A stretch of 32,407 nt of DNA from Bacillota bacterium (lineage in GTDB: Bacteria; Bacillota; SHA-98; UBA4971), in NCBI GenBank assembly GCA_012689375.1, contig JAAZLO010000040.1, positions 1 to 32,407 on the forward strand. The letters are read 5' to 3'. A program made the translations under genes and the position numbers. The notes beneath the pieces were generated by a model. That model worked only from the letters and a program-made list of their open reading frames with translations. It made no database searches and was not told the DNA's origin. How positions within the stretch are numbered: the stretch's first letter is position 1; each line of letters begins with the position of its first letter. This document shows positions 17,852-31,677 of the stretch, one piece after another.

Positions 17852-19444
17852 CTAGGGAATTACTAATGTATCACCTACCTCTATCCTGTTAGGATCCTGA
17901 ATATTGTTTGCCCTAACTATGACGTCTACAGATGTATTATATTTTTGTGCTATTTGAAACAAAGTATCACCAATCTGTACTACATATACCCTACCGCCTG
18001 AATCTGATGGTACCGCAGCCTCTGGATATGATTCTCCCGATCCCCCGGAGCGAATATCAACTACGGTGGGGACAGTATCAACCCTTGTCACCATCCCCCA
18101 GCCCCGTAAGGTCACCCTGACATTTGTAATCCTGGGTTGTATGGGAACTGCCACGACCTTAATTACGGTTACCTCCGCTGCTCCATAAAAAACAGGAGCT
18201 GCACCGGGTATACGTAATGTTACTGAAAACGGGACTGTTTTAATATAAGAGAATACCTTCTGACTGGGAAGTTCCGAAAAGAGTATAGTTATTCTCAAAG
18301 ACCCCTGTACCACAATTACACCGTCAAGCACTAAAGTTTTTATAATTCTAGCCTGGGCAAAGGATTGTATTATCCTGCCGATATTTGGGTAATTACCAGG
18401 AATAACGACCTGTACGGTTATTGTAGAATCATCATGTATTTGGCCTATAATTTCTTCGACGAGGAAGTCCCGGGTTATAGGTACAAACGGCGGCGGAAGA
18501 GCCCCTATATCGGTTACCAAAGGAAGCCCCTTTTCCACCGTAACCACTACTGACACTTTAACTACTGCTCTCACCCGCAATGTGCGGGGGTTCACGATTA
18601 CAGTATCTACTGTCTCAACCTGCACGCTTGCAAATGCAAACATGCCTTGTTCCACACCGGGCAGATCCACAATTACACTAAAGGGAATCGTCCCGTCTAC
18701 TGAAAAGACAGGCTGCGCGGGGCTTAATCCTACATAAAGACTACGTGAAGACACAATTCCATCAACTACTGCCTTGCCCCTCAACACTTTGGTTCTGGTT
18801 ACAGATGCTGTTGCTCCGGTCCTTATGATGGAGGCTGCACCTGATTTGTCAGACTGTATTGCAATTGTCCCGACGGCAATTGTCTGGGCATCCCCTTGCA
18901 ATACCCGGCGCTCAACAGTAACGAGCTTTTGTTTGACTACAGGTGTCACCGGCACGGTGAGTGTAGGTATAATAATAGTTTTTGGGACTTTACTGATTAT
19001 CGGAAGGACTTTTTCCCTCAAGACTTTTACTCTGACTGTAACCAACACATGAACCTGGACTGTCCTGGGATTAATAAGTTTAGATGTAACGTATACACTT
19101 GTTATTGCTACTTCAGGTGTCATTCCCGGGAAAATCCCATGGACATTAACACTCCCAAACAATGGTAGCTTCCCTTCGAAAAAATGGACAGGTTGTGATG
19201 GTGCGGTAGAAACATATGTTATATCTACCCCTACTTTTCCTTGAATTATAACAGTCCCAGACACAACTGAAACCCGGTTGATAACAGCATGGGCCTGAGT
19301 ATCCAAAATTGAAGCTATATCTGGCTTCGGAGGCGGCACGGTGAGCTGACCTCCGGCAACTATATTTGCACTTACATCAGCAACAATAACTTCCACCTTT
19401 ACTTTTTTGTGGTGAACACCGGAAATAGCCAAACCCCCTGACAT
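17852..19444 (-). CDS. SPOCS-domain protein, three SPOCS repeats plus C-terminal LysM (SipL-like architecture)
   Basis: A 530-residue protein of about three SPOCS repeats (residues about 12-155, 170-315 and 325-465) and a LysM domain (about 485-530, VYVVQIGDTLFQIAQKYN, ending VGDTLVIP). A short Ser/Gly linker (DIRSGGSGESYPEA) joins them. No signal peptide is seen. SPOCS + LysM is the layout of C. difficile SipL, which acts in the mother cell and binds the SpoIVA coat base through its LysM. A similar role here is inferred. The first repeat keeps QPVHFFEGKLPL, the characteristic block of the family. The start ATG 19444 follows GGGGGAGGAAGGGAA. It is separated from the other SPOCS genes by the divergent tlpA cassette. 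A -10-like CATATCAT lies at 19483-19490. Confidence 0.88.
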   Translation of the reverse strand: MSGGLAISGVHHKKVKVEVIVADVSANIVAGGQLTVPPPKPDIASILDTQAHAVINRVSVVSGTVIIQGKVGVDITYVSTAPSQPVHFFEGKLPLFGSVNVHGIFPGMTPEVAITSVYVTSKLINPRTVQVHVLVTVRVKVLREKVLPIISKVPKTIIIPTLTVPVTPVVKQKLVTVERRVLQGDAQTIAVGTIAIQSDKSGAASIIRTGATASVTRTKVLRGKAVVDGIVSSRSLYVGLSPAQPVFSVDGTIPFSVIVDLPGVEQGMFAFASVQVETVDTVIVNPRTLRVRAVVKVSVVVTVEKGLPLVTDIGALPPPFVPITRDFLVEEIIGQIHDDSTITVQVVIPGNYPNIGRIIQSFAQARIIKTLVLDGVIVVQGSLRITILFSELPSQKVFSYIKTVPFSVTLRIPGAAPVFYGAAEVTVIKVVAVPIQPRITNVRVTLRGWGMVTRVDTVPTVVDIRSGGSGESYPEAAVPSDSGGRVYVVQIGDTLFQIAQKYNTSVDVIVRANNIQDPNRIEVGDTLVIP

Positions 19445-19572
19445 TTCCCTTCCTCCCCCTTTGGTAACACATCTACCAGGATATGATATGCATAACCCGG
19501 TAAGTACGTCACTTAAAGTTCCGGGAACTATTTTAACCGGATGCCGTATTATCTCTTGGGAGAGGATATTCT

Positions 19573-20166
19573 ATGTTGATATCATGTAACTTGAGGAAAC
19601 CCAAACTAAAAACCAAATACGTACCGCTCATAACTATCCTGGTAATGATAGGCCTCCTGTCTGTATTTGCTTGGCCCGCACAAGAATGTTTTGCGAAGGG
19701 GCCCGGGGATCTTATAGATAAGCAGGCGCCTCCTTTTATCGTAACGGATCTTAATAAAACACGCATAGATCTTAACGACGCTGGTAAAGTATTTCTTATA
19801 GACTTTTGGGCCACGTGGTGCGCCCCGTGCAGAGAAACAACTTCGGTAATGACATCCCTTCATAACATGTATTCAGATCAGGGTCTTGTTGTTCTTGGGA
19901 TTGCAGTAAATGACAATGAAAGTAATGTCAGAAAATATGTCAGCGAGCATGGAATCGTGTATCCTGTAATAGCACGTCAGTCAAGGGATGATACACCGCT
20001 CATTAAAATCATACAAGATTATGGGGTACAAGCTATACCCACACTTGTGCTCATTGATAAATCCGGTGTGGTAAGACATGTTTCAATCGGTGTAAGCCCT
20101 GATAGGGCAAAATTCCAGGAAGGACTGGGAAATCTTATCGTCGGACTCCTTAAAGAGGGACAGTAA
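19573..20166 (+). CDS. TlpA-like membrane-anchored thioredoxin-family protein
   Basis: A 197-residue thiol-disulfide protein acting outside the membrane. Residues about 15-40 are a signal or anchor segment (VPLITILVMIGLLSVFAWPA, then ECFAKG). The TlpA/ResA fold follows with DFWATWCAPCRE, active-site cysteines C83 and C86, the cis-Pro block QAIPTLVLIDKSG, and the VVLGIAVND strand. The start ATG 19573 is 7 nt after GGGAGAGG. It is the first gene of a three-gene cassette, overlapping the next start by one base (TAATG), with a polyferredoxin third. That arrangement suggests membrane electron transfer to or from exported thiols; the partner substrate is unknown. Confidence 0.92.
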   Translation: MLISCNLRKPKLKTKYVPLITILVMIGLLSVFAWPAQECFAKGPGDLIDKQAPPFIVTDLNKTRIDLNDAGKVFLIDFWATWCAPCRETTSVMTSLHNMYSDQGLVVLGIAVNDNESNVRKYVSEHGIVYPVIARQSRDDTPLIKIIQDYGVQAIPTLVLIDKSGVVRHVSIGVSPDRAKFQEGLGNLIVGLLKEGQ

Positions 20167-20312
20167 TGGGACGCAAACTATCCGGGAGAATTAATCACAT
20201 ACTGCTGGTACTTGGAACAGCCTCTATAATTATTGGTATATCAAGGAGGGAATTCGGCACTATCCTGCTTAATGCTTTAATATTATGTACGTCATGTATT
20301 GGGCTTAGGTAG
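20166..20312 (+). CDS. Small CXXC membrane protein (CD1871A-like family)
   Basis: A 48-residue protein whose ATG (20166-20168) overlaps the tlpA stop by one base. It has a basic N-terminus (GRKLSGR), a hydrophobic helix (ILLVLGTASIIIGI), then a second short hydrophobic stretch ending in CTSCIGL, a CXXC motif near the C-terminus. This size, shape and CXXC position match the clostridial small protein family found between TlpA-like and 4Fe-4S genes. The function is unknown; it may relay electrons or hold a metal between its neighbours. The start is fixed by translational coupling rather than a strong ribosome binding site. Confidence 0.82.
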   Translation: MGRKLSGRINHILLVLGTASIIIGISRREFGTILLNALILCTSCIGLR

Positions 20313-20325
20313 ATTGTAGGCTTAA

Positions 20326-21162
20326 ATGAAAAAGCATGGTCGAAGGCTCGCAATTAATAGACATCCGCTAATCAGCGGTATCCTGCGAAAAGTAAATAAG
20401 AGATTAGTGACTCAGCTTATATCCTTGGCCTTCACCAATTCTTATATCTTATCTTTTTTTAAATTTTGCCCTGCGCCCGTCCTTAATTGCCATGCATGCC
20501 CACTTGCAATAATGGCTTGCCCTATCGGATCCGTTCAACATTTCATCGGGCAAAGAAGATTTCCCTTCATCTTAGTAGGATTCCTCACAATTATAGGAAC
20601 CCTTATAGGGCGAATGACCTGCGGGTGGGCATGCCCCTTCGGATTTCTTCAAGATATACTGTTTAAAATCAGATCGGGCAAAAGAAAGCTCAGGATAAAA
20701 ACAATAAACAGCGCCTGGAAGATAGTTTCTTATCCCGTTTTTATTGGACTCGTCCTTACCGGTGCATTTGTCACCGGGGAACCCCTATTTTGTAAGCTAT
20801 GCCCGGCGGGCGGCCTTGAAGCCGGGGTGCCTCTTGCAATTATAAACCCATCGATTCGGGCTATGGTAGGAACCTTATTTGTTGTAAAGATTGCCATAGT
20901 ATTGGTTTTTATAATCGCAGCAATTCTTATAAAAAGGCCTTTTTGCAGGTTTGTGTGTCCCCTTGGAGCTGCCTATTCCCTATTTAATAAAGTCAGTTAT
21001 ATACGTCTCGAGGTAGATAACGATTTATGTAATGAATGCGGGGCCTGCCGAAAGGTTTGCCCTATGGATATTAATGTATATCTTGATCCAAATTCAAAGG
21101 ATTGCATAAAATGTCTAGAATGTAGTTTTTGCCCCGCTATTAAAGTTGTATATGGCAAATAG
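20326..21162 (+). CDS. NapH-like membrane 4Fe-4S polyferredoxin
   Basis: A 278-residue membrane iron-sulfur protein. Several transmembrane helices (for example FPFILVGFLTIIGTLIG, VFIGLVLTGAFV and KIAIVLVFIIAAIL) are interspersed with cysteine clusters: CPAPVLNCHACPL, then ACPIG, the CGWACPFG and CRFVCPLG motifs typical of NapH/RdxA proteins, and CKLCPAGG. The C-terminal ferredoxin domain has CNECGACRKVCP and CIKCLECSFCP, enough for two 4Fe-4S clusters. It likely moves electrons across or along the membrane to the TlpA-like thioredoxin encoded two genes upstream. It starts 13 bases after the CXXC gene and ends just before a bidirectional terminator. Confidence 0.92.
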   Translation: MKKHGRRLAINRHPLISGILRKVNKRLVTQLISLAFTNSYILSFFKFCPAPVLNCHACPLAIMACPIGSVQHFIGQRRFPFILVGFLTIIGTLIGRMTCGWACPFGFLQDILFKIRSGKRKLRIKTINSAWKIVSYPVFIGLVLTGAFVTGEPLFCKLCPAGGLEAGVPLAIINPSIRAMVGTLFVVKIAIVLVFIIAAILIKRPFCRFVCPLGAAYSLFNKVSYIRLEVDNDLCNECGACRKVCPMDINVYLDPNSKDCIKCLECSFCPAIKVVYGK

Positions 21163-21165
21163 CAC

Positions 21166-21198
21166 AGCGGCCCCGTATTTAACATAGGCAGGGCCGCT
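21166..21198. terminator. Bidirectional terminator between the redox cassette and a SPOCS gene
   Basis: AGCGGCCC (21166-21173) and GGGCCGCT (21191-21198), a perfect 8-bp stem with a 17-nt loop and a short T-run on the plus side (TTTCCC). It lies 4 bases after the polyferredoxin stop and 36 bases before the stop of the convergent SPOCS gene. Confidence 0.7.
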
Positions 21199-21233
21199 TT
21201 CCCATACTGATAGAAACAGATTGTCAATTTTAA

Positions 21234-22649
21234 TTATGGATCCCGGTACCCCTGGGGAACTATCACATCAATAACAACATGTTTTTGTACCGTTTTAGTT
21301 ACTTTTACGAATACCTCAATAATAGCATCAACCAGGAGATCCCTTGTACCAACCTCAGGATGGTGAGTCACCCCGACCGGCAACATCTGGACAGTGACAA
21401 ACTCCACCCTTGGCCTTAAAAGGATATTCATACCGGGATAAGCCCCGGGTAAGTCCACAAATGTCGTAAAGGGAATTTCAATATGGGCATGGTGGACAGG
21501 CTGATCATGCTCAGCTGCGACATACACTATTTGTAAGATCAATATACCTTCTATAACAATTTTATTGTGAAGTGCTTCAGATCGCGTTATATCCACAACT
21601 GAACTGACGACCTGTAGAATCTTTTGGGCACATGGCTTTTCCCTGGGTATCTTCACTTCTCTCCGGATATTAATCTGGTGAGATTTTTCATTTACCACAT
21701 CTTCTATGGCTACAAGCTGTCTTACGGCATTGATTGGGATTCTGTCTGATTTTACGTCTGTTACAACACGGATTTGTTGTATCTCGGTGACTTTTACAAA
21801 GATACATAGAATTAATTCCTGCAAAACCATATGACGATCTACAATAGACACTTTTACAAACTCTATACTGGGAAATATCTCAGCTATTAACCCGGGCACT
21901 GCCCCCGGTATTCTGATCTTTGCAAGAAAGTTAACTTCTAAATGCATATGATGAACAGGTTGATCAGGCAACGCGGCTACATACATGATCTGTGTTTTAA
22001 CTTTGCCTTGTATGATTACAAGATCCGGAATAATTCGTATTTCATCTGTTATAATTTCGGTGCTGACAACACTTAATATTTTTTCGGCAGGCGGTTTACC
22101 AGCCGGCACAGGCAACATGTTGCTTAATATAACCTGACCTGTATTCTCTCCTCTGACACGTTCAACCCGGAAAAGTTGTTTATTGACTTTAACAGGAACG
22201 CTTTTAAACATAACATCAGTGATTACATCAAGTTGAACCAGCCTGATTACTTTTACAAAAAATTCTATGATAATTTCTATTTCTACTTTTCTCGGGGATT
22301 TTATCACAATATCTGAAAATTTTACCCGGGGCCTGAGAATAACTGTCATACCGGGTTGCGTTCCGGGTACATCGGCGAATTGCAGGAAGCTTATAACATG
22401 ATCCATATGGTGAACAGGCTGATCCGGCAATGCAGCCACATATATAGTCTGGACAGTTGCAGTACCTTCAATTACTACCTTATTAGGCAGCGGTGTGCCT
22501 GTTGCTGACACTGTTATATTGGCTATGCTTAATATCTTCTCAACGTCAGGTTTCCCTGCGGGAACTGATTGAAGGCTTCTAATTGTAGCTGTGGTTACAG
22601 TCTCACCGACAACTTCGAAAAGCTTAAGTCGTTCCCTCCTCAGAACCAT
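21234..22649 (-). CDS. SPOCS-domain protein, three repeats, no LysM
   Basis: A 471-residue protein of three tandem SPOCS repeats (about 8-150, 155-310 and 315-471). Each carries a near-identical block: YVAALPDQPVHHMDHVISF in repeat 1, YVAALPDQPVHHMHLEVNF in repeat 2, YVAAEHDQPVHHAHIEIPF in repeat 3, followed by the (V/I)PG and G(M/L) turn. Repeats 1 and 2 share nine residues without change, so the duplication looks recent or constrained. No signal peptide, membrane helix or LysM is present. It would be a soluble structural protein, inferred to be part of the spore envelope. The start ATG 22649 follows GGGAGGGGAATAGAAG. It lies 81 bases after the SPOCS-LysM gene 22731-24332 and probably shares its transcript. 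Confidence 0.86.
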   Translation of the reverse strand: MVLRRERLKLFEVVGETVTTATIRSLQSVPAGKPDVEKILSIANITVSATGTPLPNKVVIEGTATVQTIYVAALPDQPVHHMDHVISFLQFADVPGTQPGMTVILRPRVKFSDIVIKSPRKVEIEIIIEFFVKVIRLVQLDVITDVMFKSVPVKVNKQLFRVERVRGENTGQVILSNMLPVPAGKPPAEKILSVVSTEIITDEIRIIPDLVIIQGKVKTQIMYVAALPDQPVHHMHLEVNFLAKIRIPGAVPGLIAEIFPSIEFVKVSIVDRHMVLQELILCIFVKVTEIQQIRVVTDVKSDRIPINAVRQLVAIEDVVNEKSHQINIRREVKIPREKPCAQKILQVVSSVVDITRSEALHNKIVIEGILILQIVYVAAEHDQPVHHAHIEIPFTTFVDLPGAYPGMNILLRPRVEFVTVQMLPVGVTHHPEVGTRDLLVDAIIEVFVKVTKTVQKHVVIDVIVPQGYRDP

Positions 22650-22730
22650 CTTCTATTCCCCTCCCTTTCAAACCAAGATCCCAAACTCAACACTAAATTT
22701 CAGGCTTAATTCCCCTGGGTGGGCCTACTA

Positions 22731-24332
22731 TCATCCTTTAGGAGCGGGGCATGCAGGAATTTGGATTACTTGACCTACCTGAAGGTTCTCTGGGTTTATA
22801 TCAGGGTTTGCCTGAATAATTGCCTCGACTGTCGTATTATATTTCCTGGCCAACGCCCAAAGGGTATCACCTGGTTGAATCGTCACCATGACAATGGTAG
22901 GCTGCGGGCACGGCCCTTCCGGGGGAACTGAAACAACAACTACATTGACAACTACATTTAGTTGCACAGGCTCAGTAACTTTTGCAAATACACCGACAAG
23001 GACTTTGACAGTAAAATGCCTGTCTTCAACAAGTTCAAAATCCACATGTTCCACAACTACACGGGTTTCCGCAGTGAATCCTTCATATGTGCCTGGTATT
23101 TCCACAAAAAGTGTGAACTTTACCCTGTTTGACATATGATGTACAGGCTGATCACCTTCAGGTGTTTGTGCAACATATAAAGTCTGGAGTTCAATAACAC
23201 CTTCGATAATTACCTTGCCGTCAATAATTCTCCAGGAAGTTTCCTTCACTGAAGTATCAATGCGAAGGATACGTTCAATATTAGGTTTTTCCTTAGGCAC
23301 CTTGAGTACTTCTTTAATAATTGTTTGGGCTATATCTTCTCCTATAACATCTTCAACCCGAAGCAAGCGCTTTTCTACATCAAGAACTTGAATTTTAGAA
23401 GTAACATCCGTTACAATTTCTAATTGCCGGACAACAGTCACTTTAGCAACAATTTTCAAAACCACATCTACCGTAACTGTACGGAAATCAAGTTCTGTAA
23501 AACTGACAGCCTCAAATATTATTCTGGCTTGGGCAACCATCCCGGCTGTCGCCCCCGGAACCTCCACAACCTGAGAAAACCTCAATTGAGTTGAGAAGAA
23601 ATGAACCGGTAGTTTTGCACCTGAAGGAGTAGGAGCATGGGGTACAGCTGCATAAAGAACATCAACGTCTATCAGCCCTTCGACAATCACTTGCCCATCA
23701 AGGACCTCAATATCTGTCAGACGCGGCTTTGCCTCAACACTTATAACAGAATCAATATCAGGCTTTTCAAACGGCACTGTGAGCCTACCGGTTACTAAAG
23801 CCTGTGCATGAGCGTCTCCGATTACATCCTCAACCTTCAGAAGCTCCCTGGCAACCTGCAGATCTTTGGGTCCGGTTACCTCAGTTACTACCTCTAATTG
23901 TTCAGTGACAGTAACCTTAACCCTGGCGGAAATCACAACGCGTACATCAATAGTCCTGATATCAACTAAATCGAAGGCGACATCATGTATGTCCACTTGT
24001 ACCCAGGCGTTCATTAAAGGCTCGGTTCCCGGCACTTCAGCAATAAGTTCGAATGAAACATCTTCCTCGAATACCTGAACCGGCTGTGCCCCTGTTGCCT
24101 CACGTGCTACATAAAGGACTCTTATTTTAGCTGTCCCTTCAATCAGAATCTTGTTTTTTATGAGTTGGAAGGATGTGGTCAGCACAATGACATCCACACT
24201 GATAATCTTTTCAGCGGTAGGGAGGGCATCTTTTATTTTAATGACTTCCCGCAGGACTTTCCGCGCCGTGGTTTCGCCAATGACCTGTTCGACTTTTAGG
24301 AGTTCCTCTTTGAGTTCGATACCCACAGCCAT
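22731..24332 (-). CDS. SPOCS-domain protein, three repeats plus C-terminal LysM (SipL-like architecture)
   Basis: A 533-residue protein with three SPOCS repeats (about 5-155, 160-315 and 320-470) and a LysM domain (about 484-527, VTIQPGDTLWALARKYN, ending VGQVIQIP). Repeat heads read LKVEQVIGE, LKVEDVIGD and LRVEDVIGE, a very regular register; the third repeat holds GDQPVHHMSNRVKF. Of the two SPOCS-LysM proteins in the window this is the more regular and the better candidate for the SipL orthologue, but this is inference. The start ATG 24332 is 6 to 7 nt after AAAGGAGG; the frame is open nine codons further upstream without reason to use them. A -10-like CATATAGT lies at 24396-24389. Confidence 0.9.
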   Translation of the reverse strand: MAVGIELKEELLKVEQVIGETTARKVLREVIKIKDALPTAEKIISVDVIVLTTSFQLIKNKILIEGTAKIRVLYVAREATGAQPVQVFEEDVSFELIAEVPGTEPLMNAWVQVDIHDVAFDLVDIRTIDVRVVISARVKVTVTEQLEVVTEVTGPKDLQVARELLKVEDVIGDAHAQALVTGRLTVPFEKPDIDSVISVEAKPRLTDIEVLDGQVIVEGLIDVDVLYAAVPHAPTPSGAKLPVHFFSTQLRFSQVVEVPGATAGMVAQARIIFEAVSFTELDFRTVTVDVVLKIVAKVTVVRQLEIVTDVTSKIQVLDVEKRLLRVEDVIGEDIAQTIIKEVLKVPKEKPNIERILRIDTSVKETSWRIIDGKVIIEGVIELQTLYVAQTPEGDQPVHHMSNRVKFTLFVEIPGTYEGFTAETRVVVEHVDFELVEDRHFTVKVLVGVFAKVTEPVQLNVVVNVVVVSVPPEGPCPQPTIVMVTIQPGDTLWALARKYNTTVEAIIQANPDINPENLQVGQVIQIPACPAPKG

Positions 24333-24496
24333 CTTTTTTCCTCCTTTCCAATTACACACACGGAGCCGTACACTCCTTTTTCATTTCTACTATATGCGGG
24401 TACCTCAATGAAATGTGCATATATTTCTAAATACAGGGGTACACCTTACGCATATTGAAAATGGTAAGTTGAAGAGAAACTCCGCATATATCCTTG

Positions 24497-25864
24497 CTAC
24501 CTGACGGAAGGAATCCGTCCGCCTCCGTTCCGTATCACCTTAAAACTCACCCTGACCCTGGACCAGACCTTTGGATCCGTTTCCTCCAGATCTGCAATGG
24601 CAATACCCGCTAATTTATATTTTAATGCCAGCTCTGCATGGGACTTGATACTTTCTGCATCTTCAAAATACACAATATGACTCATACGGGACGATCTATA
24701 TTTGAAGGCTTTTGATTCTCCACCGTCAACCTGCGAAATCACAGGGTTGGAAACACCTGTTATCTCAATAATTTCCCCGTATTTTTTTCGGGCGGGGGGT
24801 AAATCAGCGTTTACTGAAAATTCAACACCAAACCCGGGTACAACAATTACTAATTTCCAAAAATCCACTGTTCGTGTAAGATTATTTAATATAGTTTTTA
24901 TGCAACTACCGGATATAATAGGACCCGGAGATTGAAATTCCGACGGATCTTTATAGGCTTTAAGAAAGATCATATGCATAATGGATGTAATCCCCCTTAG
25001 GTCCCGGAGACGGCTCCTTCGGTTTTTCCTATTGCAAGGTATAACCTTATTGTATAAAGACATTTCAATCCCTGATAATAACCCTCTCTTTTTCGCAATG
25101 GTTGTGGTTTTGCGAAAAAAGGACTGGAACATGTATATATCTTTTTCATGAAGACTGTTTATCGAAAAGATTAAGCCCTTCATTCGCTTCCGGGCGGCCA
25201 GGGCGGCAAGATTTGAAAAATTCCGTATTACCCTGGAATAGGCTTTACTGTCCGGGAGAACATCTGTAAGATCCTCAGCACTAATCACAGGCCATAGATC
25301 TACACCTGTCACCGACGCCAAAGAAACCATTTTTTCGTTAAGTTCACCCTGGATATTTCCATCGGCATTAAGTTGGAACCACCGAGGAGCAATTGCAGTT
25401 ACAGATGGCAGTATACGTTCATAGGGTATTTCAAAATCCCCGGAAGATCCACAGGAACAAAACGCGATAAGGCGTAATACCGGGATTGTTAAACTGTCAC
25501 CCTCCCTTACTTTGTTAATATCAATACGATTCGCGGTTATAAGTAATTCCTGGGGGACGTTATATTTCCGGGCAATACTTTGGAGGGTTTCGCCGTCTGC
25601 CACTGTATGATCGAGCTTCATCCGTTCAAGCCCGGATCTAAGAAGGGCAAAGACTTCCTTACCGCAGATGCCATCAACCCTTAACCTATGTGCTTTCTGA
25701 AAATCGAATACAGCACCTTTTGTAACAGTACCGTAGAACCCGTCACATTCCCCTTCATAGTAACGGAGGGCAGATAAATGCCGTTGAAGTATAGTTACAT
25801 CCCGGCCTTTCATACCAGGCCTTAAAATCCTTTTCCAAAACATCTTCCCCTGAAACAGTGCCAT
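24497..25864 (-). CDS. Peptidoglycan-binding + LysM + GH18-fold protein, SleL/YaaH-like, probably catalytically dead
   Basis: A 455-residue protein. A PG_binding_1 domain (about 15-75, GMKGRDVTILQRHLSAL, then DGFYGTVTKGAVFDFQ) is followed by a LysM (about 85-130, HTVADGETLQSIARKYN) and a GH18-like barrel (about 135-455). The C-terminal barrel end is family-typical: HIVYFEDAESIKSHAELALKY then LAGIAIADL. The GH18 active-site strand, normally ending DxxDxDxE, reads MKGLIFSINSLHEKD here, so the catalytic Asp/Asp/Glu set is not recognisable. Relatives such as SleL degrade spore cortex; this one may instead bind cortex or coat. The start is ATG 25864 (GGAGG 11 nt upstream); TTG 25870 is an alternative. 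A perfect sigma-E-type -10 precedes it. Confidence 0.85.
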   Translation of the reverse strand: MALFQGKMFWKRILRPGMKGRDVTILQRHLSALRYYEGECDGFYGTVTKGAVFDFQKAHRLRVDGICGKEVFALLRSGLERMKLDHTVADGETLQSIARKYNVPQELLITANRIDINKVREGDSLTIPVLRLIAFCSCGSSGDFEIPYERILPSVTAIAPRWFQLNADGNIQGELNEKMVSLASVTGVDLWPVISAEDLTDVLPDSKAYSRVIRNFSNLAALAARKRMKGLIFSINSLHEKDIYMFQSFFRKTTTIAKKRGLLSGIEMSLYNKVIPCNRKNRRSRLRDLRGITSIMHMIFLKAYKDPSEFQSPGPIISGSCIKTILNNLTRTVDFWKLVIVVPGFGVEFSVNADLPPARKKYGEIIEITGVSNPVISQVDGGESKAFKYRSSRMSHIVYFEDAESIKSHAELALKYKLAGIAIADLEETDPKVWSRVRVSFKVIRNGGGRIPSVR

Positions 25865-25921
25865 GGGCAAAACGCCCTCCAAAAATTTAAGTGGACAGTA
25901 GCCACCTTAACTTGCAAACTT

Positions 25922-25951
25922 ATTGTATGTCAGGGGCGATCTCCTTGTGAC
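25922..25951 (-). promoter_or_regulatory. Candidate sigma-E promoter of the PG-binding/LysM/GH18-like gene
   Basis: Minus strand: CATACAAT (25929-25922) is a perfect match to the sigma-E -10 consensus, with GTCACAA (25951-25945) about 15 nt upstream as a partial -35. It lies 58 bases upstream of the start, in the gap after the neighbouring gene. Mother-cell expression would suit a coat or cortex protein. Confidence 0.5.
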
Positions 25952-25961
25952 GTACTAATCA

Positions 25962-26570
25962 TCATGGAATATGGAGGCCGGAGAAAAACCTGATAATTCT
26001 CTTAATGAGATCTGTTGCGACTAAAATAAATTGATTTATTCTGGTATCTTTTTGTTTATATGTAACAGGCTCTGCCCTTTTTCCTATGCTGATACCAGTT
26101 ATGACCTGGAGAACCCGCTTTTCTAGGACAACCCCTTCCAATAGAATTGAGGCTTCTAGGACAATTCCGTTACCCGATTCATCCGGGAAAACCTCAATGT
26201 TCTCAATATAAAACTTTGCCTCTATACGCATAGAATCGGTGATTTCAGGGATCTCCATAAACACCCTAGCTTTATGATTTTTAGACACAGCCTGTATCTT
26301 TTCCCCGGATGACAAATAAACCCATACTGAGAGTTCAAAAGATGCAAGGGCGGAACGGTCAAATATTTGCCATGATAGGGATACCGGATCAACAGTGACC
26401 CCAAGTGGGTACTTGAAAATGAAATCCTTAACTTCACAGGGCACGTTTATAGATTTTCTGCACCATATATTGGTGACAATGCATTCGGCTTGGAGACTTT
26501 CACTTTCTGTTGTAAGGTAACCTGGCACCGCCGTTGCCTCCGCCCAACTTATGTAGTAAGGATCCGGCAC
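25962..26570 (-). CDS. Divergent single SPOCS-like protein
   Basis: A 202-residue protein without a clear database-style signature. Its middle and end follow the SPOCS pattern: VFMEIPEITDSMRIEAKFYIENIEVF, then the IVLEASILLEGVVLEKRVLQVITGI strand, matching the EIPG...G...V pattern and the closing strands of the family. The N-terminal 50 residues contain the only two cysteines (AECIVTNIWC) besides one in VPCEVKDF. The C-terminus ends in a basic, hydrophobic, amphipathic segment (ILVATDLIKRIIRFFSGL) that could touch a membrane. The start is GTG 26570 with AAGGA upstream. It sits between two SPOCS-cluster genes on the same strand, 97 bases before the GH18-like start. The assignment rests on weak similarity plus context. 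Confidence 0.65.
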   Translation of the reverse strand: MPDPYYISWAEATAVPGYLTTESESLQAECIVTNIWCRKSINVPCEVKDFIFKYPLGVTVDPVSLSWQIFDRSALASFELSVWVYLSSGEKIQAVSKNHKARVFMEIPEITDSMRIEAKFYIENIEVFPDESGNGIVLEASILLEGVVLEKRVLQVITGISIGKRAEPVTYKQKDTRINQFILVATDLIKRIIRFFSGLHIP

Positions 26571-26641
26571 ATTGAATCCTTATTCGTAGGAGTATTTTCA
26601 TATTCTCCGGCAAACTTATATACAAAATAGAAAGTCCAATG

Positions 26642-26684
26642 AAAGGGAAAAGATTGCCCGGGGACTGCCGGATAAGATCCCCGG
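26642..26684 (-). terminator. Probable terminator after the membrane-anchored SPOCS gene
   Basis: Minus strand: CCGGGGA (26684-26678), 13-nt loop, TCCCCGG (26664-26658), then GCAATCTTTTCCC. The stem is perfect over 7 bp and is followed by a moderate T-rich stretch. The flanking GC-rich sequence (26685-26715) contains further overlapping repeats of CCGGGGA and a small CCGCC/GGCGG hairpin. Confidence 0.5.
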
Positions 26685-26748
26685 CGTCCCCGGAGGATGC
26701 CGCCTTTATCAGGCGGGTAAATGTAAGACCGAAATTTCCGTAAGCCTA

Positions 26749-28614
26749 TCAGTCCTCAATCGAAACACACGGATCCGCAGGGACTATCGGAATTTGAACA
26801 TGTTCCGTTACAACTGTTTCTATAAAGACTATTACCTTTTCCGTAAGTTCACCTGTGGCAGGATCGAATTCCCACACAATATTTTCGACAAACGAACGAT
26901 CCTGCTGATCCATTCCTTCCTCCACAGGGCACCCAGGGTTTATCGGCGGTATTTCTATCATTTCACTGAAAGGGATATCCTCGGCAATATGATGTACGAG
27001 ATCGTCCGTGCCTACAAAGAATATTTGCTTATGAACGACTCCCTGGACTATAACTTTACCATTCTTGACTATTGATGTTATTTCACTGATTTGGGCATCA
27101 ATATCTACGATTTTAATGGCGGGCAGGACCCTTGTCTCCTCAACCAGCTTTTGGGCACATCCGAACCCTATAATACGATCACTTTTAATGAGAGTCCCAG
27201 ATTCACATACCCTTACCGGGACTCCACACGTCTCTGTAACCCCGACACATAAAACGAGGATGATTTTTTGTGTCAATATGCCGGTGGCGGAATCAAATTC
27301 GAATACAAGATTGTCAACAAATGAATGATCCTGTGAGTCCATCCCCTCGCGTGCACACGGTACTACTAGAAGATCACTGAATGGGATATCCTCTGATAAG
27401 TGGTGGACAAGATCATCTGTGCCTACGTAAAATATTTGTTTGTGGACGATCCCTTGAACCAAGACTTTTCCATCTTTAACTATGTGCTTTATCTGCGATA
27501 TCCGGGGTACTATTTCAATTACCTTGATTGCAGGAATAACTTTAGTTTCTTCTATGAACTTTTGCTTTACATTTTCACCGACCACAACCTTCGTCTTAAT
27601 CAAAGTACCCTCAGGACAGACTGCCGCTGAAAACTGCTCAGTCTCCGTTACTTTTACACATAGTTTAAGTATAATCTTTTGTGTTAGGGTACCGCTGTCC
27701 GGATCAAATTCAAATACATTATTTTCAATTACAGAAAAGTCCTGATGGTTCATGCCTTCCCTTACTGGACAGGTAGGATTCACCGGATCCACATCAACCA
27801 GTTCACTAAAATCTATATCTTCTGCAAGATGATGCTCTAATTCATCGGTACCGATATAGAATATCTGCTTGTGGACAGTGCCCTGGATAATAACTTTACT
27901 ATCTTTTACTATGGACCGAATATTGGTGAGAACAGGGGTGATCTCTACTATTTTAATACCTGGAATAGTAATCGTTTCTTCTAAAAGAACCTGCTTTGAA
28001 CCGTGGCCTATAACCTTTTCCACCTTAAGACATGCCGTTTGAACCTGACTATACCTCTCCATATTTAGCATATGCAAGCCTCCTTCCCCAAGCCTGGATT
28101 GTTTTTCTATCAAACAATTAAGAAAAATAGGTCGTGCCCGCCCCGGGGTCCTCCCCTCATCCCTTTCTTCATTCTGCACCGGCAGGGATGGACCGGGGTT
28201 ATTTTGGGTTATTATTATATATCCCTCGTTATTTTGGGAGTTTGTGGCGTCTCCGCCGGGGGAACCTATAGTACTGTCTGGACAAGATGTAGGATCATCA
28301 AAGGGAGGTTCGGTATCTTCTGCCATACGTGTAGCATTTCCAATGCCCCATGAACTGGCAGTACATAACGTAAGATTTCTTTTAACCAAAGTAACGCCAG
28401 GATTAACTAGTTCCGGATCAGGGGTAATCATAAAAATAGAATTATCACACCTGTCCGGTTCCCTTCGATTGCCATGTTTAATATCACGGGATTTGTAAGC
28501 CCCGGACAAGATTTTCCTTCCGTGTTTGTTATACCTTATTATAAAAAAACCCAGGAGGAAAAGGGCAACAGCAAGCATTATTACGTGAAATTGCCATAGC
28601 CCTGTGAACAACAT
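26749..28614 (-). CDS. Membrane-anchored SPOCS-domain protein with three repeats and an internal start
   Basis: A 621-residue protein from ATG 28614, preceded by AAGGGAGG at about 10 nt. Residues about 10-27 are a transmembrane helix (HVIMLAVALFLLGFFII), followed by a basic stretch and a long, polar, low-complexity linker (to about 180) rich in Asp, Asn, Gly and Pro. Three SPOCS repeats follow (about 195-330, 335-475 and 480-620). Each carries HKQIF(Y/F)(I/V)GTD, then HH(L/I)(A/S)EDI and the loop EGM(N/D)xQDxS. A perfect AAGGAGG with 7-nt spacing precedes an in-frame ATG at 28071 just before the first repeat, so a soluble 440-residue form may also be made. It follows the four-repeat gene by about 80 bases. 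Confidence 0.85.
   Translation of the reverse strand: MLFTGLWQFHVIMLAVALFLLGFFIIRYNKHGRKILSGAYKSRDIKHGNRREPDRCDNSIFMITPDPELVNPGVTLVKRNLTLCTASSWGIGNATRMAEDTEPPFDDPTSCPDSTIGSPGGDATNSQNNEGYIIITQNNPGPSLPVQNEERDEGRTPGRARPIFLNCLIEKQSRLGEGGLHMLNMERYSQVQTACLKVEKVIGHGSKQVLLEETITIPGIKIVEITPVLTNIRSIVKDSKVIIQGTVHKQIFYIGTDELEHHLAEDIDFSELVDVDPVNPTCPVREGMNHQDFSVIENNVFEFDPDSGTLTQKIILKLCVKVTETEQFSAAVCPEGTLIKTKVVVGENVKQKFIEETKVIPAIKVIEIVPRISQIKHIVKDGKVLVQGIVHKQIFYVGTDDLVHHLSEDIPFSDLLVVPCAREGMDSQDHSFVDNLVFEFDSATGILTQKIILVLCVGVTETCGVPVRVCESGTLIKSDRIIGFGCAQKLVEETRVLPAIKIVDIDAQISEITSIVKNGKVIVQGVVHKQIFFVGTDDLVHHIAEDIPFSEMIEIPPINPGCPVEEGMDQQDRSFVENIVWEFDPATGELTEKVIVFIETVVTEHVQIPIVPADPCVSIED
28069..28085 (-). promoter_or_regulatory. 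Internal ribosome binding site and in-frame start within the anchored SPOCS gene
   Basis: Minus strand: AAGGAGG (28085-28079), 7-nt spacer, ATG (28071-28069). It is the best Shine-Dalgarno in the SPOCS cluster and falls exactly at the border between the linker and the first SPOCS repeat. Confidence 0.65.
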
Positions 28615-28694
28615 AATGTCCAATCCTCCCTTACGATGTTCTTCTCTATATCCTATTGAAATTCACCTAAAAATGTGATGAGCCGGGGCTCCCG

Positions 28695-30668
28695 CTAAGT
28701 TTTAAATGTAGCGTCGGTTACCACTGATACAGGTATAGGACCGACTGTTCCATTTACAACAACTACCAGAGGAACCGTCTCTTTAGTAACTGTATCTACA
28801 TTAGGCCCGGTGAGATCAGTAACAACATCGAGTTCTACAAGATCGGGGGTATCGTCATCTACTACATCTGCAAGGACTTTCGTTTTAGTCTGGAAAATAC
28901 CGGGTCCTGTTACATTTACCACTACCCGGACAACCCTTTCTTCAGCTGATGCAACTGTAACAATAATGATTATTAACTGCTGGATTTTGGTTCCCTGGCA
29001 GATAAGGTTTTGGACAAGGCTTTCCACCGCTGCATCCACTGTAATTTCTGCATTTTCTGTAATCCCCGGGACATCCACAACACCACTGAACGGAACTGTC
29101 TCTTCAATACGTCGGACTATATCACCTGGACCCACCACAAAGACATCTTTTCTAAGCGTCCCTTCGACAATCACCTGCTCACCAATGATTTCCCATACTA
29201 TATTTTCAATTGAAGACTCCACTGATTTAATTTTATTGGCCGTAAACGGCAGGCAAACTGAGTTTTCTATGAGAAGTTGTTTTCGGGCTTCCACACCTTC
29301 ACCGATGCGGATCCTCTCGAATTCTACGGTAACAGGAAGTACAGATATAATTATCCCCTCCGCACAAACCTGGGCAGTGCCTTCCCCGATCACCTGTCTG
29401 ACTTTAAACAGGGAGCCTTCAGGGTTTTCCTCAACTCCGATATCGACAGTTGTTGTAATTATGACTTCAATATCAGCGAGATCTTTCTCTGTAATTTCAG
29501 TTCCGGTTTGCGAGGGATCGAATACAACAGGTAAAGCCTGAGCATTGACAATAACATTGAGCCCAGGCTGAATCCCTGGGATGGGTATAAAGGTGTTAAA
29601 GGGAATAGCAAAGGATTCTAAGACTTCTACATCGTCTTCATTAATGTAATAAACATCCTTTATGAAAGAACCTTGTATTATGACTTTATCTGCAATTGTT
29701 CTTCCTGTAACGTTTTGAACAACAAGATCTATGTCTTTAATTTTAATTGCAGGTTGCGCTAAAGTGACAGTGATTTCCTCCATAATCTGAGTTGAATCTA
29801 TCGCTATAATCTCTTCAGTTTCAATTATTAGGTCTGCCCCCGGTACCGGGATTATTTCAACTGTCTGGGTAACCTTTGCAAATATATCAAGGACTATTTC
29901 CTGAAAAACTGAAGCACCTGTAGGTTCCAAACTGAAAGTAATGTCTGCCACAGTCGCATGTACTTGAACGTTCATTCCAGGTTCCGCACCGGGAATATCT
30001 ATCATTAATGCAAAAGGTATGGCAACAGCCTGATGACGGCCGACCTGATTAAAGTCGATAAAGAAGATTTGTTTTAGAATGTTCCCTTGGATAACGACTT
30101 TATCTTCTTTTACAGAAGCCAGTGTAATCTCGGGATTCGCTCGGATTTCGGTGACTTTCACAGCAGGCACTATCAAAGTCACATTACCTGATTCGAGGAT
30201 TTGACCTGTATCCTCCCCTACCACCTGTTCCATTAGTACCGGAGGTTCAGTGGAACCTTCGGAGAGCCTTACTTGTACAAATTGAGTAACTTTTACGTCC
30301 ACGTCAATAATTATCTTTTGTGTTATTTGAGTACCATCAGGGCTTAACACTGCTATAACGTTAAATATAGTTGGTCGTGCATCTACCACTACTTCAGGGC
30401 CTGGTATAACCCCGGGGATTTCAACCAGGGCTGCAAAACGCGCACGCTCCGGGAAATGATGGACAATATTATCCTCCCCTACAAAAAATACTTGTTTTTG
30501 AACGATCCCTTGGACTATTACTTTATCCGGAATCACATGTGTCGCCACACTGTCAATATGGGCCTGAATTTCCTTTATCTTAATTGCCGGGATAGGCAAT
30601 GTAATGGTTATCTCGGAACAGGCCCTATGGGTTATATCGGAACAACACCTCAAAGATGCATATGCCAT
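28695..30668 (-). CDS. SPOCS-domain protein with four repeats
   Basis: A 657-residue protein, the longest of the cluster, with four SPOCS repeats (about 15-155, 160-310, 315-455 and 465-620) and a short C-terminal tail. Repeat openings share the pattern ITLPIPAIKIKEIQAHI and VTLAQPAIKIKDIDLVV. Middles share the DKVIVQGIVQKQVFFVGEDNIVHHF type block. The IVQKQVFFVG wording links it to the anchored three-repeat protein rather than to the DQPVHHM group. There is no signal peptide, LysM or membrane helix; three cysteines occur at the very N-terminus (CCSDITHRAC). The start ATG 30668 follows AAGGGGGTAAG, and a hairpin sits just upstream. It begins the main SPOCS run; a spore-coat structural role is inferred from the family. 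Confidence 0.86.
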   Translation of the reverse strand: MAYASLRCCSDITHRACSEITITLPIPAIKIKEIQAHIDSVATHVIPDKVIVQGIVQKQVFFVGEDNIVHHFPERARFAALVEIPGVIPGPEVVVDARPTIFNVIAVLSPDGTQITQKIIIDVDVKVTQFVQVRLSEGSTEPPVLMEQVVGEDTGQILESGNVTLIVPAVKVTEIRANPEITLASVKEDKVVIQGNILKQIFFIDFNQVGRHQAVAIPFALMIDIPGAEPGMNVQVHATVADITFSLEPTGASVFQEIVLDIFAKVTQTVEIIPVPGADLIIETEEIIAIDSTQIMEEITVTLAQPAIKIKDIDLVVQNVTGRTIADKVIIQGSFIKDVYYINEDDVEVLESFAIPFNTFIPIPGIQPGLNVIVNAQALPVVFDPSQTGTEITEKDLADIEVIITTTVDIGVEENPEGSLFKVRQVIGEGTAQVCAEGIIISVLPVTVEFERIRIGEGVEARKQLLIENSVCLPFTANKIKSVESSIENIVWEIIGEQVIVEGTLRKDVFVVGPGDIVRRIEETVPFSGVVDVPGITENAEITVDAAVESLVQNLICQGTKIQQLIIIIVTVASAEERVVRVVVNVTGPGIFQTKTKVLADVVDDDTPDLVELDVVTDLTGPNVDTVTKETVPLVVVVNGTVGPIPVSVVTDATFKT

Positions 30669-30906: not shown

Positions 30907-31677
30907 CTACCATGTACCAATAAACAGTTGGGTATACATGTTACCGTACCCGCCCCCGGCAGCAATTCCCACACCGACTTTGTCATATGACGGGTTAAGA
31001 ATATTCTGGCGATGCCCGGCACTGTTCATGAGAGCTGAGTGTGCCTGGTCTACGGTTCCTGCTCCCGCCAAATTTTCCCCCGCGATCCGATAATTAATTC
31101 CTGCCGAGGTCATCATTTTAAAAGGATCTCCGTAAACCGGGGATGTATGGCTGAAATAATTGTTTGTAATCATATCCTGGCTTTTTTTGCGCGCCAAATC
31201 AACTAGTCTCAGATCAACTGTAAGAGGCGGAAGCCCTGCCTTTGATCTTTCTTGATTAATAAGGTTCACCATCCTTTGTTCATTTACGGTTAATCCTGGA
31301 GAAGGAGTAGGCTCCGGCTGAGGTGTGGGCCTGGGTGAAGGCTGGGGAACCGGTGTCGGACTCGGCCTAGAGGGCGTGTACGACCCGTTACTGCTATAAT
31401 AGTACCAGGTGTTACCTGAATTGTAATAGTATGTCCCGTTCGCCGAATTCGAATACAATGTTCCATTATAATAATATGTAGATTTGCCTGACGGATTATT
31501 GTTGTAATAGTAGATCGTTCCCGGGCTGTTTGAATAAAAGCTGTTGTTATAATATTGGGAACTGTTATTCCCTGGGCTTGAATAGTAGATTGTAGCTGCA
31601 AAAGATTTAGCAGGCATAACCAGGGCTATCCCAAGCACAGCCCCGATTAACAATGCCATGATAATCCGTTTGTTCAC
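30907..31677 (-). CDS. Secreted CAP-domain (SCP/YkwD-like) protein with a Tyr/Asn-rich repeat region
   Basis: A 256-residue exported protein. Residues 1-28 are a signal peptide (MNKRIIMALLIGAVLGIALV, likely cut after SFA). Residues about 30-100 are a tyrosine-, asparagine- and serine-rich repeat with recurring YYYN/LYSNS/TIYYYN units. Residues about 103-128 are a proline linker, then the CAP domain (about 130-256) with LINQERSKAGLPPL, SHTSPVYGDPF, IAGENLAGAG and AGHRQNILNPSYDKVGVGIA, including the usual His/Glu/His cavity residues. Spore-former CAP proteins of the YkwD type are often coat-associated or extracellular; function is unproven. The start is GTG 31677, 8 nt after GGGAGG. It lies between veg and the SPOCS genes with its own terminator. 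Confidence 0.92.
   Translation of the reverse strand: MNKRIIMALLIGAVLGIALVMPAKSFAATIYYSSPGNNSSQYYNNSFYSNSPGTIYYYNNNPSGKSTYYYNGTLYSNSANGTYYYNSGNTWYYYSSNGSYTPSRPSPTPVPQPSPRPTPQPEPTPSPGLTVNEQRMVNLINQERSKAGLPPLTVDLRLVDLARKKSQDMITNNYFSHTSPVYGDPFKMMTSAGINYRIAGENLAGAGTVDQAHSALMNSAGHRQNILNPSYDKVGVGIAAGGGYGNMYTQLFIGTW

Follow-up and report, generated by a model that had tools for sequence, protein, structure and literature searches.

The window, i.e., the whole stretch of 32,407 nucleotides analysed here, carries a run of SPOCS (DUF3794) genes interrupted by a gene whose product resembles the spore enzymes SleL/YaaH and is referred to below as the pseudo-GH18. The features on which the analysis rests are the following:

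17852..19444, minus strand: gene with three SPOCS domains and a LysM domain (Pfam)
21234..22649, minus strand: gene with three SPOCS domains (Pfam)
22731..24332, minus strand: sipL-type gene adjoining the pseudo-GH18 gene, three SPOCS domains and a C-terminal LysM, 533 aa (Pfam SipL E 1e-54, LysM E 2.9e-16)
24497..25864, minus strand: SipL-linked pseudo-GH18 gene, 455 aa, ATG at 25864, stop at 24497
24527..25480, minus strand: predicted GH18-fold TIM barrel, residues 129-446 (AlphaFold2 model, VIA-align, Foldseek against SleL)
25157..25180, minus strand: beta-4 strand (K229-N236) where DxxDxDxE would stand; S234 takes the place of the catalytic Asp, N236 that of the proton-donor Glu (alignments)
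25481..25609, minus strand: LysM domain, residues 86-128 (Pfam PF01476, E 2.4e-9)
25640..25807, minus strand: PG_binding_1 domain, residues 20-75 (Pfam PF01471, E 1.6e-14)
25922..25929, minus strand: mother-cell-sigma-like -10 element CATACAAT at -65, near-constant in place in the window's family
25944..25950, minus strand: conserved upstream half-site TCACAAG, 14 bp from the -10 element, GT[AC]AC core in the family
25962..26570, minus strand: 202-aa upstream neighbour, between the pseudo-GH18 gene and a gene with three SPOCS domains, at most weakly SPOCS-like
26749..28623, minus strand: gene with three SPOCS domains (Pfam)
28695..30668, minus strand: gene with four SPOCS domains (Pfam)

A sequence-only reading of this DNA had placed the gene inside a SPOCS cluster, and indeed 16 SPOCS domains are encoded by five genes of the window within about 13 kb (17852-30668). 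By Pfam, no SPOCS domain is found in the pseudo-GH18 itself. The 202-aa neighbour is modelled as six long beta strands followed by a C-terminal helix, is 46-49% identical within the genus and about 25-36% identical in the sister genus, and has no fold match in the PDB at an E value of 0.001 or better; its identity as a SPOCS protein is unproven (Pfam SipL E 0.06; hhalign probability 21%, although the E value is 0.001). A YkwD-type CAP gene (30907-31677) lies beside the cluster.

The pseudo-GH18 is 55-57% identical to its same-genus orthologues. The Glyco_hydro_18 model of Pfam recognises the window protein weakly and below threshold (E 8e-4, 19.6 bits, the cut-off being 29.6). Two other identities were considered and rejected. 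The TIGR02869 model of the cortex-lytic enzyme SleB aligns with the N-terminal PG-binding part only and gives 46 bits, which does not reach its whole-protein cut-off of 236.5, and the NCBIfam model of SafA/ExsA-type coat proteins gives an E value of 0.086 and 12.8 bits at a cut-off of 67.85. The pseudo-GH18 has no hydrophobic N-terminus, and none is expected of mother-cell coat proteins.

AlphaFold2, supplied with alignment A2, in which ten relatives accompany the window protein, produced a best model with a mean pLDDT of 77 and a pTM of 0.78, the mean pLDDT of the other four models being 52-61. The top solved match to the modelled barrel is SleL (4s3j_B; VIA-align Z 31.6 over 314 residues, rmsd 3.1), and a second SleL structure, 4s3k, scores nearly the same (Z 31.5 by VIA-align, E 7.4e-26 by Foldseek); many chitinases match at Z of about 29-31. 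SleL/YaaH 4s3k is also the first phmmer match of the window protein among solved structures, and one orthologue (L047) matches PF00704 at 8.2e-21. Judged by this model, the window protein is a member of the GH18 fold family with a complete barrel. It had been proposed that PG-binding and LysM domains and the C-terminal end of a GH18 barrel are kept; all of these are present, and the last part of the statement was too modest, as the whole barrel is predicted to be there.

The fold appears to have been kept while the catalytic apparatus was lost. Residues 231-242 of the window protein read LIFSINSLHEKD, and in the phmmer alignment of the catalytic strand the window has GLIFSINS where SleL/YaaH 4s3k has DIHFDFEF. 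The assignment of S234 and N236 to the catalytic positions also follows from the alignment with a canonical GH18 paralogue encoded in the same genome (G000:C131, GVNIDLEN). The superposition on SleL that had been suggested from sequence was carried out through fold scores and aligned sequence, and it points to a SleL fold with S234 and N236 at the catalytic positions. The changes extend beyond the catalytic strand: the beta-6 Met, found in 29/29 control proteins, is K302 in the window, the beta-6 Asp (26/29 controls) is K305, and the beta-8 Trp (29/29 controls) is A424, while the beta-6 Tyr is retained as Tyr304. The D-x-E-type match of the window protein, ADLE at 424, lies in beta-8, away from the catalytic strand. 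By DxxDxDxE, the beta-6 M-x-Y-D and the beta-8 Trp together, the aligned residues place the window protein outside the active GH18/SleL enzymes.

Within the window's class (15 proteins including that of the window), where the GH18 relation is secure, the donor position is occupied by G in four, S in three, T in two, D in two and N, E, C and A in one protein each. Because the residue varies so freely, the donor position appears to be unconstrained in this class, and its drift is well seen in one genus member (L038, 1-1218), in which the donor residue is Glu (LSVE) and the Asp is replaced by Ser, its relatives having Gly or Asn as donor residue. At the same time, other residues, W162, Y244, W336, R390 and R393 among them, are invariant within the class and not in the controls, which suggests that the barrel may have acquired a new surface.

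Whether the loss is a property of the window protein or of its relatives as a group was judged from a wider sample. The window protein searched singly against genome contigs gave no match, and a profile of alignment A1 gave 14 loci, 13 of them in Firmicutes/Bacillota MAGs and one a weak Hyphomicrobiales match. Relatives were sought in 149 related genomes and 398 genomes of the phylum, and all counts rest on the matches listed. The linked set comprises 41 proteins: 31 encoded directly upstream of sipL (including the window), eight separated from it by a gap of 2.2-2.7 kb and two encoded among SPOCS genes. The 29 controls, which are not a random sample, are the genome's own paralogue, eight proteins encountered together with relatives and 20 high-ranking matches from the phylum, and for 18 of the 29 the source genome contains a linked copy as well. 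A protein was called unlinked if its gene lay in none of the sipL/SPOCS loci fetched; in the case of 18 of the 20 phylum controls the listed sipL of the genome is on a different contig, and for the other two (G178, G202) its place is not listed.

Both catalytic residues are aligned in 0/41 linked and 29/29 unlinked GH18 proteins, or 30/30 with L105, assigned by its D-x-E motif. The earlier statements that the GH18 signature is unrecognisable and the donor Glu lost thus hold for the window protein and extend to the linked group, in which the loss of the pair, as aligned, is more than chance. An alignment-free search for a GxxxDxE-type motif agrees with this (29/29 controls, 1/41 linked). The single linked match, L168, and its relative L101 are ambiguous, with LDLE displaced by about five residues, and this segment may be the catalytic strand. 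The looser D-x-E pattern occurs in 12/41 linked proteins and, as we read it, elsewhere in the chain save in these two. In six linked copies only the Glu of the pair is present, and in nine only the Asp. One further protein (L049 from G027), with H and G at the aligned positions, also lacks the pair; it was counted in neither group, its neighbour not being visible on a contig of 3,150 bases.

Among 11 linked members tested with Pfam (the window, L044, L047, L051, L052, L080, L093, L097, L100, L141 and L165), PG_binding_1 exceeds the cut-off in all 11, LysM in eight and PF00704 in two. How remote members relate to GH18, and where their catalytic columns lie, is judged from a family profile (A3), several rows of which are themselves remote members, and from alignment. 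In three sister-genus copies (L039 9721-11322, L043 8134-9705, L040 8519-10306) one loop of the barrel is extended by long insertions of low complexity, rich in Asn-Ala or in Arg/Glu/Gly.

The recurring genomic place of these genes is next to sipL. In 30 loci and the window the family member immediately precedes sipL in the same orientation, with a gap of -141 to +481 bp; in eight further loci it is 2.2-2.7 kb upstream on the same strand with NTP_transferase and epimerase genes in between, and in two loci of family f2 (L047 and L048; genomes G013 and G015) it lies among SPOCS genes, sipL being on another contig. Linked members cover 16 families (f1, f2, f3, f18, f27, f56, f59, f63, f73, f82, f90, f97, f105, f107, f129, f140), and the same-strand place upstream of sipL is kept in 15 families. 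In the loci examined there is no full-length copy downstream of sipL (L139 is partial and L084 encodes a different protein), and no intact-site GH18-like gene was detected next to sipL in the stretches fetched, some of them cut off by the end of a contig. The different protein, encoded just downstream of sipL (L084 5867-6727, G141), has PG_binding_1, LysM and CAP domains. Two distant genomes have a Lon-type protease gene immediately before a shortened pseudo-GH18 gene and sipL (L051 7740-9704, L053 4918-6888). The suggestion that the gene belongs functionally with its SPOCS neighbours therefore finds strong support at the level of gene order, since in many families the gene recurs ahead of sipL on the strand of the latter.

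These numbers depend on how the loci were chosen. Some fetched stretches were picked for a known relative, and 20 were regions around SPOCS genes, some with a relative known nearby. Among the 398 phylum genomes, at least 200 have a sipL-type match at 1e-40. Another sample of 80 sipL loci was taken in E-value order among the matches listed, one per genome, outside the window's class and omitting genomes already fetched; in 9/80 a co-oriented family member precedes sipL, an undercount, as genomes known to hold the gene are omitted. A spurious sipL match (L104) was excluded from the sipL count, and an 89-aa gene fragment at a contig end (L050 in G002) was not counted. Altogether, of 111 sipL loci inspected outside that class, 26 have a family member and 85, some of them ended by contig ends, have none. 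Because so many loci are without such a neighbour, the SipL system does not universally include a pseudo-GH18.

The genes of this family diverge rapidly and under constraint. Pairwise NG86 estimates of dN/dS are 0.13-0.24 for the whole gene (8 pairs; the lowest value, window-G004, comes with a near-saturated dS of 2.35), 0.17-0.28 for the barrel (8 pairs) and 0.08-0.19 for the N-terminal 130 residues (7 pairs, window-G004 being not computable), and 0.04-0.06 for the adjacent SipL gene (5 pairs). By these estimates the pseudo-GH18 evolves several times faster than SipL, yet it is clearly constrained. In a tree of the barrel (71 rows, 311 columns, catalytic columns removed) the 29 controls all fall to the same side of a single branch with support of 100/99, and the linked label requires two changes on the tree versus a mean of 22.9 when shuffled. 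The label stays in one piece in 32% of bootstrap trees, and several linked rows are very long-branched. One old origin of the linked family is likely on this evidence, and loss of Asp and Glu in different orders in different lineages would fit the tree; the inner branching order is unsure because of the long branches. Repeated recent capture of an active paralogue from within the same genome was considered and is unsupported, as the 29 controls group together, apart from the linked copies.

The surroundings of the gene would fit expression in sporulation. The genome encodes SpoIVA and sigma-E, both above model cut-offs. Across 10 aligned genomes of the window's family, the -10 element is CATACAAT exactly in nine and CATAAAAT in the tenth, at -62 to -65 from the start and with the GT[AC]AC box 14 bp before it, in an otherwise variable region. 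The arrangement resembles the consensus of sigma-E/sigma-K promoters, so that the family appears to share a mother-cell-sigma-like promoter. Evidence from the single genome was set aside as weak, and it is the 10-genome alignment that supports the element: in the window alone CATACAHT occurs four times versus 4.13 expected, which is the chance level, and the two-box promoter score is matched by 15/200 shuffles. A promoter scan of 12 genomes outside the family gave nothing convincing.

Taken together, these data make it probable that the protein is a SipL-linked pseudo-SleL which binds cortex peptidoglycan and ties the cortex to the SPOCS coat layer, the role of a tether being deduced from its domains and from related systems. 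The pseudo-GH18 would be a dead relative of SleL/YaaH within the SipL (SPOCS) coat-morphogenesis module, presumably made in the mother cell during sporulation. Its PG_binding_1 and LysM domains may hold cortex peptidoglycan, or precursors of it, and SipL, and the altered face of the barrel may serve as a protein- or glycan-binding surface. The SPOCS layer would then be fastened to the cortex by the pseudo-GH18, much in the manner of SafA in Bacillus subtilis, and the cortex would not be cut by the pseudo-GH18 at germination. We infer attachment to cortex and coat from PG_binding_1 and LysM and from the biology of SafA, YaaH and SipL; a LysM domain alone cannot separate peptidoglycan binding from protein binding.

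It is less likely, though conceivable, that the dead barrel acts as a cortex lectin or regulator, which binds N-acetylglucosamine/muramic-lactam glycans and either shields the cortex from active SleL/SleB or delivers it to them. Dead GH18 proteins with retained sugar binding have been described, YKL-39 (4ay1) and CHI3L1 being matches by fold, and the active-type paralogue G000:C131 is encoded in the same genome. However, the replacement of the pocket-floor Trp of all controls by A424 and of the beta-6 Met and Asp by Lys means that a chitin-like sugar pocket has probably been lost in the window's family, and the linkage that recurs is to sipL. The loss of the motif would be misleading if the protein were still a hydrolase that employs other residues or cuts a different linkage. 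Relatives of f56 keep the Glu, the Asp is aligned in relatives of f63 (3/7), f73, f105, f18, f129 and f97, and, as far as sequence alignment and fold scores can tell, an acid from another segment of the chain might conceivably fill the pocket; since six linked copies keep the Glu and nine the Asp, some of these relatives may have residual or altered activity. For the window protein such a possibility is very remote, considering that within one class eight different residues (N, G, S, T, A, C, D, E) occupy the donor position, that the pocket residues of beta-6 and beta-8 are lost too and that the genus member with a Glu (L038) has Ser for the Asp. The view of the protein as a pseudoenzyme rather than a lysin, reached before from a single sequence, thus gains from the absence of the pair across the orthologous group, the free donor position and the signs of purifying selection.

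The linkage to sipL might also reflect shared mother-cell expression only, the protein having an unrelated coat role, e.g., with a spore-surface polysaccharide made by sugar genes of the cluster. Such genes do occur: in 8/8 loci of the sister genus and f3 NTP_transferase and epimerase genes are beside the pseudo-GH18 gene with a glycosyltransferase gene on its other side, and epimerase and glycosyltransferase genes are found in 2/2 f2 loci. In these clusters (L039-L048) the epimerase is GDP-mannose-dehydratase-like, and a spore-surface polysaccharide is suggested. Homologues of the three sugar genes were, however, not found in the window or in five loci of its genus (L035-L038, L050), the distant L051-L053 have at most an epimerase-like match of 30% identity, and the same-strand place upstream of sipL persists across 15 families, so that we regard this explanation as improbable. 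Least credible of all is that a nonfunctional SleL copy is decaying in a MAG. Between the window and G004 the pseudo-GH18 is 56.8% identical and its sipL-type neighbour 91.7%, and it has indeed diverged much faster, but the listed orthologues of the genus and sister genus have no internal stop, the dN/dS of 0.13-0.24 is low, the promoter-like element is conserved in the family and the class has invariant residues of its own, such as the five named above.

The finding is larger than the sequence-only reading allowed, in that it concerns a family of SipL-linked dead GH18-like proteins. It is tempting, although distinctly more tentative than the role of a tether, to regard this as an ancient undescribed family of dead SleL-like proteins that is encoded with sipL, serves some of the spore-forming Bacillota as their lineage-specific coat-cortex staple, a counterpart to SafA of Bacillus and to SpoVQ of C. 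difficile, and, once tied to SipL, lost its active site by different routes (the Asp gone and the Glu kept, or the reverse). No description of a SipL-linked dead GH18 pairing was found in the open-licence literature searched. In these lineages a gene for a PG-binding/LysM/GH18-like protein beside sipL should not be annotated as a cortex lytic enzyme unless its active site has been checked.

Direct coordination of coat and cortex was argued to be perhaps universal, with regulators that differ: SafA and SsdC are named for Bacilli and SpoVQ, which ties SipL/SpoIVA to the cortex, for Peptostreptococcaceae (PMC8265636). For other lineages, a dead GH18 protein that is linked to sipL and has wall-binding domains can be put forward as a specific candidate. 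The closest likeness is to SleL/YaaH (4s3j, 4s3k), which has the same GH18 barrel (Z 31.6) and N-terminal wall-binding LysM. The YaaH of B. subtilis also counts among the coat proteins, and the encasement by YaaH-GFP depends on SpoVID and SafA; binding to the cortex or its precursors was speculated by the authors to aid encasement (PMC6282716). Unlike SleL/YaaH, which has two LysM domains, the pseudo-GH18 has one LysM and PG_binding_1, is encoded beside sipL and is without the catalytic Asp and Glu, the beta-6 Asp and the beta-8 Trp. SafA, the inner-coat hub of B. subtilis, is at most a functional analogue, similar in its N-terminal LysM, which is described as binding SpoVID and later the cortex (PMC6436350), in its belonging to the SpoVID module and in its proposed part in joining coat and cortex (PMC6436350, PMC6282716), but no sequence relation beyond LysM was seen, and the pseudo-GH18 carries a GH18 barrel. 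SpoVQ of C. difficile is likewise a lineage-restricted partner of SipL/SpoIVA that links coat and cortex, and its description as a bitopic membrane protein, with no mention of a GH18 or LysM domain (PMC8265636), sets it apart. Animal dead GH18 proteins (CHI3L1/YKL-40, YKL-39) share the fold and the replacement of the catalytic Glu (PMC1945033), and YKL-39, going by the title of 4ay1, keeps chitooligosaccharide binding, whereas the pseudo-GH18 has several groove residues changed and belongs to a bacterial spore gene cluster. SipL of C. difficile combines three SPOCS domains with a SpoIVA-binding LysM (PMC6436350), exactly the architecture encoded by the gene adjacent to the pseudo-GH18, and compared with these three domains the five-gene cluster of the window has 16.
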